Assembly (NCBI GenBank): GCA_020720815.1
Contig: DYNY01000006.1
Coordinates: 1 to 60,440, forward strand
Origin: Candidatus Elulimicrobium sp.
Lineage (GTDB): Bacteria > Patescibacteriota > Minisyncoccia > Phycocordibacterales > UBA918
Length of the DNA: 60,440 nucleotides
Direction of reading: 5' to 3'
A program made the translations under genes and the position numbers. This document shows, piece after piece, positions 32,495-33,819 of this stretch (position 1 is its first letter; each line of letters starts with the position of its first letter). The notes beneath the pieces are model-generated. The model made no database searches and was not told the DNA's origin. It saw only the letters and a list, made by a program, of their open reading frames with translations.

Positions 32495-32592
32495 AATAAT
32501 TAAATTAAACTAAGATAATGCTTAGTATAACAAATAAAATGCTTTCCCTATGTAAATTTATATAAATATTTTTGTGCTAATATACAAATATT

Positions 32593-32712
32593 ATGTTTGA
32601 ACAATCTCTACAAGAAATTGGTTTATCAGAGAAAGAGGCGCGCATTTATTTGGCTCTACTGCAAGTAGATAGAAATACTGTACAAGAATTGGCCAATTGG
32701 ACACTACGTTGA
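32593..32712 (+). pseudogene. N-terminal remnant of a TrmB-like transcriptional regulator
   Basis: MFEQSLQEIGLSEKEARIYLALLQVDRNTVQELANWTLR*; HTH start, then abrupt change to unrelated GC-rich sequence. Confidence 0.65.
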
Positions 32713-32954
32713 TCGACCTCAGCTTTGAGGTAACGGACGCTGGTGTGGAGATAACTATTGAGAAATCCAAGACGTACTTTGGCTTTGCTCTGGCGGACAG
32801 CATGTTCGCCGGCAACATCACCATAAAACGGGTGAGCCTTTCGGTGGAGGAGGTGGCTTCGGCTACCTTTCTCTTCGCCGAGTACCGCGTGAGTGATCGG
32901 GTGCTCGTGCCGAGGGGGTTTGAAACTGACCTCCGGCACATCAACCAGGGTTGA
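32697..32954 (+). CDS. GC-rich ORFan (possibly TTG start or 5'-truncated)
   Basis: (M)DTTLIDLSFEVTDAGVEITIEKSKTYFGFALADSMFAGNITIKRVSLSVEEVASATFLF...; overlaps the TrmB remnant in another frame. Confidence 0.5.
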   Translation: MDTTLIDLSFEVTDAGVEITIEKSKTYFGFALADSMFAGNITIKRVSLSVEEVASATFLFAEYRVSDRVLVPRGFETDLRHINQG

Positions 32955-33088
32955 GCCAGAGAAAGGAGACTCCTTGCGCTGGCTCCACGCAAAGGTTTGC
33001 ACCTCTTGGTGGGTATAGGAGCATTTTCGTGAGAATTCCTATGGCGGGAGTTTGCACAAATTTGCCGTTTGACTCACGAAACGAGTCA

Positions 33089-33137
33089 CTTTCGTAAAGT
33101 GTGTACTTTACCTGATGAGTCGGAAACGACGAAAAAG
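33089..33137 (+). ncRNA. Hammerhead ribozyme-like element (type III topology)
   Basis: CTTTC | GTAAAGT-GTGT-ACTTTAC | CTGATGA | GTCG-GAAA-CGAC | GAA | AAAG: complete core CUGAUGA/GAA, A15.1-U16.1, C17, G10.1-C11.1, stem I 7 bp, stem II 4 bp, stem III 4 bp. Confidence 0.75.
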
Positions 33138-33195
33138 CTTTAAAATCAATCAATCCGTTTTTCTCCCAGGGGTTTATTTATAGTATAATTACAGG

Positions 33196-33819
33196 ATGAT
33201 AAATAATTCTTGGTTCCCAAAGATTTTGCTGGTGGCCTATATGGTGGTGTTTAGTATTTTAGCTATTAGTCCTTTTAGTCGTGATGTTTGGTTGGCCGAA
33301 AATTTACCGATTGTTTTGATTGTCCTTTATTTAATATTTTTGTATTGGCGCGGAGTACAGTTTTCTAACACCAGCTACGCCCTGATGTCAGTCTTAATTT
33401 TTATGCATACGGTAGGCGGGCATTTTACTTTTGAACGTGTGCCTTTCGATTGGTTTAATGACTTCTTTGGTTTTGAACGCAATATGTATGACCGAGTCGC
33501 TCACTTCTCAGTTGGGTTTTACGCTTACCCGATTGCTGAGTATTTGAGCGTTCGCAAATTAGCTAATACTAAGTGGCTCATATATCTCACACCGCTTTTC
33601 TTTATTATTTCCATTGCGGCTGTTTATGAAATGATTGAGTGGTGGTTTGCTGCTACCTATGGTGGCGAGGCTGGTGCTGCTTTCCTTGGTTCCCAGGGAG
33701 ATATTTGGGATGCGCAAAAAGATATGCTGATGGATACCTTGGGTGGGATTAGTGCTCTGTTATCGTTTTTCTTTTTATCGTTATGGCAAAGTATTAGTGG
33801 GGTGGTAAAAAGGGAATAA
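33196..33819 (+). CDS. DUF2238 (YjdF-like) membrane protein
   Basis: NMYDRVAHFSVGFYAYPIAEYL, YEMIEWWFAATYG, GDIWDAQKDMLMDTLGG. Confidence 0.9.
   Translation: MINNSWFPKILLVAYMVVFSILAISPFSRDVWLAENLPIVLIVLYLIFLYWRGVQFSNTSYALMSVLIFMHTVGGHFTFERVPFDWFNDFFGFERNMYDRVAHFSVGFYAYPIAEYLSVRKLANTKWLIYLTPLFFIISIAAVYEMIEWWFAATYGGEAGAAFLGSQGDIWDAQKDMLMDTLGGISALLSFFFLSLWQSISGVVKRE

Follow-up and report, generated by a model that had tools for sequence, protein, structure and literature searches.

A type III hammerhead ribozyme in a Patescibacterium, and the hairpin and boxA-like motif that accompany many of its relatives

Hammerhead ribozymes (HHRs) have been described in bacteria and phages as clusters flanking prophage genes: for some of these copies cleavage was shown both in vitro and inside E. 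coli, and a part in transcript processing was proposed, although the 2011 report left their biological role open (Perreault et al. 2011, PMC3088659). In eukaryotes, ribozymes mark mobile elements such as retrozymes, which spread via circular or unit-length RNA (PMC7761336). A separate literature concerns boxA, which is reported to be both necessary and sufficient for formation of the rrn antitermination complex; the lambda version of this complex resists Rho-dependent and intrinsic terminators (PMC10250234). Our search of the open-access literature (subscription papers and preprints were outside its scope) found no paper in which hammerheads are linked to Patescibacteria or to the candidate phyla radiation. 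Here we describe an HHR from contig DYNY01000006.1 of Candidatus Elulimicrobium sp., a Patescibacterium; the whole stretch of 60,440 nt that was analyzed is referred to as the window.

The ribozyme spans 33089–33137 on the forward strand and has a complete core together with stems I, II and III. It begins and ends with stem III (CTTT/AAAG, 4 bp, 33089–33092 paired with 33134–33137), which is open. C17 (33093), within a UUC triplet, is the base after which cleavage is predicted, an inference from its position in the fold. Stem I (GTAAAGT-GTGT-ACTTTAC, 33094–33111) comprises 7 bp and a GUGU loop with a closing U-A, giving the family-typical UGUGUA; there follow the catalytic core CUGAUGA (DNA CTGATGA, 33112–33118), stem II (GTCG-GAAA-CGAC, 4 bp with a GAAA loop in a 12-nt geometry, 33119–33130) and the core GAA (33131–33133). 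The features that define a type III HHR are all present: the core CUGANGA...GAA, A15.1-U16.1 and H17, with stems I and II closed by loops and stem III open. The copy is intact in each core base, in all 15 pairs and in loops typical of its family. A sequence-only reading of the window had given these letters and coordinates, and both held exactly.

The core, the order of the stems and the predicted cleavage site after H17 are those of the Rfam type III model, RF00008 (Hammerhead_3). The family to which the window copy belongs differs in being compact and fixed, with an 18-nt stem-loop I, a 12-nt stem-loop II and a stem III of 4–6 bp. The Rfam models were the first check that the sequence-only reading had proposed. 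A scan at the gathering threshold gave no match in the window, and in permissive mode the copy scored 22.3 bits with RF00008, against a gathering score of 48.5. Nor is the ribozyme unusually stable when folded alone (z about −1). Since fold energy and Rfam score were both unremarkable, the case had to rest on relatives. A covariance model, R1, built from 19 relatives with the window left out, scored the copy at 67.6 bits (E = 1.2e-20) and found no other match in the 60 kb. The score with RF00008 is low because stem III is misaligned; we regard the shortfall as a limit of the Rfam model for a compact subfamily, rather than as the sign of a missing structural feature. Within the 856-kb genome of the host the pattern CTGATGA...CGAAA occurs at 10 places, and only at the site in the window are the three stems formed.

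Relatives are found both near and far. A blastn search with the variable patch of DNA that holds the ribozyme (see below) against 49 genomes of the same family returned one other match, 41 nt at 85% identity, which is exactly the ribozyme (contig G008:C3). The stems of this copy are different in sequence yet paired, and it scores 43.6 bits with RF00008. Matches to R1 occur in 9 of the 49 genomes of the host's family and in at least 21 of 289 genomes of its class, a lower bound because only 20 candidates were scored per genome. In a sample of 290 genomes from across the phylum, 5 had the core pattern, and a pattern of loop I and core was detected in 54 IMG/VR contigs. From GTDB genomes a core-only pattern returned 118 stretches, and viral contigs yielded at least 120; among 80 GTDB titles, 50 were of Patescibacteria lineages (Kaiser-, Taylor-, Nomura-, Shapiro- and Saccharibacteria among others). 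One of the genomes with such HHRs is of Nanosynbacter (L107, L131).

Another proposed check was a search of related genomes for covarying stems. Covariation in our alignment of relatives (A1) was judged to be biased when taken alone, because its members had been picked with a stem descriptor; the core-only test was added to remove this bias, since its pattern fixes neither stem I nor stem III. Both stems form at 118 of 121 testable genomic sites and at 115 of 121 viral ones. In a set of 89 different genomic copies that share this geometry, the pairs of stem I (the loop-closing pair excepted) are 99–100% paired with 4–6 pair types each, and every core base other than N7 is invariant; all 89 came from the descriptor scan, so that these pairing percentages lean upward. 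The stems thus covary and the core does not vary freely. Searched with the full descriptor, 2.6 Mb of retrieved DNA contained 233 copies of type III and 116 of type I. Type III geometry is strikingly fixed: of the 233 copies, 169 have a stem-loop I of 18 nt and 215 a stem-loop II of 12 nt, and the window copy shares both features. Its loop I (UGUGUA) is the most frequent one among type III relatives and its loop II (GAAA) ranks second; H17 is C in 186 of the 233, as it is here. Loop positions are conserved among relatives and the window loops match them, any contact between loops I and II being putative. The sequence-only reading had held a 4-bp, AU-rich stem III to be a weak point: it is ordinary here, being 4 bp in 75 of 233 type III HHRs, and one relative (L089, genome G015) has a stem III identical to that of the window.

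A chance resemblance would be consistent with the Rfam score below cutoff and with the unremarkable overall fold energy. Against it stand the absence of any descriptor match in 1.38 Mb of shuffled sequence, the E-value from an independent model and the fit of the loops to family preferences; chance can be discounted almost entirely. That 33089–33137 is a genuine type III HHR is, on this comparative evidence, close to certain, and to this extent the identification made by the sequence-only reading held; catalysis is inferred only. The window copy belongs to a large family with members in phages and, at an unusually high frequency, in genomes of Patescibacteria.

Like the HHRs of Perreault et al., those of this family lie between co-oriented genes, often several to a locus: the upstream gene is on the same strand as the HHR in 46 of 49 viral and in 55 of 68 genomic cases. 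They differ in host lineage, here Patescibacteria, and in that the flanking genes are mostly not phage-like. Genes flanking genomic copies are for the most part without a PHROG match, and their Pfam matches include genes of chromosomal type, among them glycosyltransferases and an arginyl-tRNA synthetase. A plain prophage explanation is unsupported: phage matches were few (Pfam and PHROGs, 92 flanking genes), though phages of Patescibacteria are poorly represented.

Several single loci deserve mention in their own right. One family copy immediately precedes an ABC-transporter operon. Copies that combine a strong hairpin, an HHR and the boxA-like motif described below occur in Patescibacteria, for example at L132, L112 and L338. 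Viral contig L023 carries eight type I HHRs and one of type III, while L085 (G042:C116) has two near-identical type III HHRs 390 nt apart, at 93–141 and 483–531, with a long near-perfect hairpin after the first. Type I HHRs, such as those of L023 at 8851(−), 7942(−) and 7092(−), often seem to hold the stop codon of the upstream gene inside stem I (...TAA|CTGATGA), the median distance from stop to HHR being −1. Upstream of a variant HHR, L081:1610-2092(−) (G031:C4) encodes a 161-aa protein with a weak, below-cutoff match to the RNA polymerase alpha C-terminal domain (19.9 bits). Two HHR-linked ORFs without a Pfam match, L082:952-2022 (G042:C116, 356 aa) and L079:1655-2791 (G030:C22, 378 aa), look alike by eye and have an RDHH stretch in common.

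Reading the flanks of family copies gave rise to the idea that a hairpin belongs on the 5′ side of stem III. With a hairpin defined as one of −5 kcal/mol or better that ends within 5 nt of stem III, 88% of viral type III copies have an abutting 5′ hairpin, compared with 37% in shuffled sequence, 29% at 100 nt farther upstream and 6% downstream. The corresponding values for genomic type III copies are 68%, 19%, 38% and 11%. In a held-out set of 23 copies from the class, which were found with the covariance model and had not been used in forming the idea, the hairpin is present in 83% against 17% in shuffled sequence (Mann-Whitney p = 9e-11) and 43% farther upstream. Most commonly, 5–8 nt separate the end of the hairpin from the cut, and its gap to stem III is mostly 0–2 nt. 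It accompanies 78% of copies with a stem III of 4–6 bp and about 54% of those with 7 bp or more. In the window it lies at 33070–33088 on the forward strand (TGACTC-ACGAAAC-GAGTCA, −6.2 kcal/mol) with a gap of 0; it is modest, its strength being reached by 21% of shuffles, and what speaks for it is the pattern across the family.

Type I HHRs show no such excess (viral copies 20% vs 16% shuffled), and no hairpin abuts them on either side. The difference can be read from the products of cleavage. The 5′ product of a type III HHR would end in a bare strand of stem III, so that a hairpin must be added if the 3′ end is to be closed; a type I HHR needs none, because stem III, as a closed hairpin followed by a single base, already forms the end of its 5′ product. 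From the presence of the hairpin in type III and not in type I we infer that the ribozyme makes a 3′ end and that the hairpin guards it. A version in which a hairpin protects the new 5′ end, and would thus be needed after the cut, was dropped since type I HHRs show no downstream hairpin. As in an intrinsic terminator, the hairpin would define the 3′ end of an mRNA; the difference is that it is followed by a strand of stem III (CUGUC or CUUUC) and no U-run, the end being made by RNA cleavage.

On the other side of the ribozyme, a de novo search of the region 3′ of 165 genomic type III copies, the window excluded, returned the motif GTTCTTTGAAA (variant GATCTTT) in about 60% of copies, mostly starting 1–6 nt after the HHR (log-likelihood 328 vs about 34 in shuffled sequence). 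At a fixed cutoff and within 11 nt, it is present in 38 of 85 Patescibacteria copies (about 45%), in 1 of 80 viral copies (1%) and at 0.3% of control positions. Some of the copies scored had also served to train the motif model; the exact string GTTCTTT gives the same contrast (25% vs 0%). From sequence alone, we take GTTCTTTGAAA to be a motif resembling boxA, the site of NusB/S10. NusB is encoded in the host genome (PF01029, 124 bits). The likeness to boxA/nut sites of rrn leaders and lambda lies in the motif itself, just 3′ of genomic HHRs; unlike those sites, it adjoins a ribozyme and protein genes, not rRNA. The 16S leaders of the host genus have no clear copy of the motif, so that the boxA reading remains a hypothesis, and no structured element downstream of the motif is in clear excess over positions farther downstream. 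The window copy lacks the motif, its best score within about 11 nt, the expected position, being −0.6 bits. In the sections of Perreault et al. that bear on the matter, neither a hairpin at the cut site nor a boxA is described (PMC3088659).

We propose that the HHR cuts read-through transcripts of the upstream gene. Once cleaved after C33093, such a transcript would have an upstream part that ends in the hairpin 33070–33088 and a 5-nt tail with a 2′,3′-cyclic phosphate. Such a tail is probably too short for a 3′ exonuclease to load, and the hairpin would act like that of a terminator, albeit on an end made by a ribozyme. The downstream RNA would start with a 5′-OH in the stem I hairpin and would still be attached to the polymerase; the boxA-like signal, which in many Patescibacteria copies follows the HHR at once, could bring in NusB/S10 and so sustain transcription. 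If a polymerase passes over terminators, 3′ ends would have to arise in some other way, and a ribozyme with a hairpin offers one. The fold, the covariation, the family, the enrichment of hairpin and boxA-like motif and the orientation of the genes are shown. Catalysis, protection from exonucleases and binding of NusB are inferred, and the balance of evidence tips only mildly in favor of the explanation as a whole. A role in mRNA processing, one of two suggested by the sequence-only reading, fits the comparative data: HHRs sit between co-oriented genes, with a hairpin where the new 3′ end would form.

The hairpin may, however, have nothing to do with the 3′ ends of mRNAs. It could be a folding aid, stacking on or shielding a short, open stem III so that the core forms. 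The gap to stem III, mostly 0–2 nt, is in keeping with this, and so is the scarcity of hairpins beside a long stem III (7–8 bp). But type I HHRs also have a short open helix (stem I), yet no abutting hairpin on either side, and the length of the tail does not track that of stem III. We hold a folding aid to be the less likely reading, though not one without support.

How far transcript cutting applies to the window copy itself depends on its surroundings. Alignable backbone ends at 32497 and resumes at 33175; between them, and between genes for a superoxide dismutase (SOD) and a DUF2238 membrane protein, is a variable patch of about 0.7 kb (32498–33174). The DUF2238 gene (33196–33819, forward strand; PF09997, 164 bits), downstream of the ribozyme, is part of the backbone and has an 83% identical ortholog in genome G042. 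The corresponding interval of G042 is filled by 5.3 kb of unrelated genes, which identifies SOD–DUF2238 as an insertion hotspot. The patch contains a truncated gene of the TrmB helix-turn-helix type (32593–32712, forward; PF01978, 27.8 bits, profile positions 1–30 of 68), the family match ending at 32697. At that position begins a GC-rich ORF of 85 aa (32697–32954, forward), upstream of the ribozyme. No relative was detected in Pfam, PHROGs, viral contigs or the host's family; the GC-rich ORFan of the sequence-only reading does exist as an open frame. The further claim that it replaced a TrmB-like gene is only partly shown, in that the helix-turn-helix domain breaks off at profile position 30 of 68. 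A search for a consensus promoter ahead of this ORF gave none, and BLAST of the patch against phages and plasmids gave pieces at chance level only.

TrmB-family genes recur in the data. Several family HHRs have one at a distance of no more than about 1.5 kb (L073 and L083 on G028:C6, L074 on G015:C15, 32593–32712 in the window and L326:3849-4649), and the hotspot holds a TrmB fragment or gene in both G000 and G042, the host's own genome having only about four TrmB matches. In G042 (L326:1200-6300, G042:C140) the hotspot carries an ORF of 878 aa that lacks a Pfam match and an ORFan of 232 aa, together with a TrmB gene on the opposite strand.

The surroundings admit two further explanations. The window ribozyme may be a relic, a passenger on a foreign fragment in an insertion hotspot that has no present role in the host. 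The patch of about 0.7 kb, with its truncated TrmB gene and ORFan, and the unrelated genes at the same site in G042 speak for this, as do the missing boxA motif, the modest hairpin and the lack of an HHR relative at this site in other genomes. Against it, the core, the 15 pairs and the family-typical loops are all intact, which is unexpected for an old relic; we give the relic less credence than its negation. Alternatively, the HHR could be part of a mobile element that spreads, like retrozymes, via circular or unit-length RNA, and the sequence-only reading had suggested that self-cleavage might mark a mobile unit. Support is weak. The foreign character of the patch and its location in an insertion hotspot would suit such an element, but neither the window nor the rest of the genome has a second HHR, no long repeats surround the ribozyme, the 3′ flank is a backbone gene and the ends of an element were not found. 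Retrozymes and circular RNA elements differ in just this respect, the window having neither tandem HHRs flanking a unit nor repeated units, and a mobile element of this kind is very improbable. To return to transcript cutting, the module in the window is incomplete, with no boxA motif and a modest hairpin, and what is present may be a reduced version or a remnant. The sequence does not tell whether this copy still cuts transcripts, with its accessories reduced, or came in as a passenger only recently.

The single ribozyme is thus of a known kind. What is new, as far as the searched literature shows, is the arrangement of hairpin, ribozyme and boxA-like motif and its spread in Patescibacteria. 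Self-cleaving RNAs seem to be common in this phylum of small-genome bacteria, and the Rfam type III model can miss members of the compact subfamily. That type III HHRs, unlike those of type I, have a hairpin at the cut site, and that in Patescibacteria a boxA-like signal often follows the ribozyme, makes for a specific and testable claim about how mRNA ends are formed. A bolder reading, which we hold to be somewhat less probable than its contrary, is that operons of Patescibacteria use a hairpin–HHR–boxA device, in which the ribozyme would cut the nascent transcript, the hairpin would finish the 3′ end of the upstream mRNA and boxA would reload the antitermination complex, allowing transcription to proceed. 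If this reading were true, ribozyme-made mRNA ends would be a routine mechanism of gene expression across a bacterial phylum.
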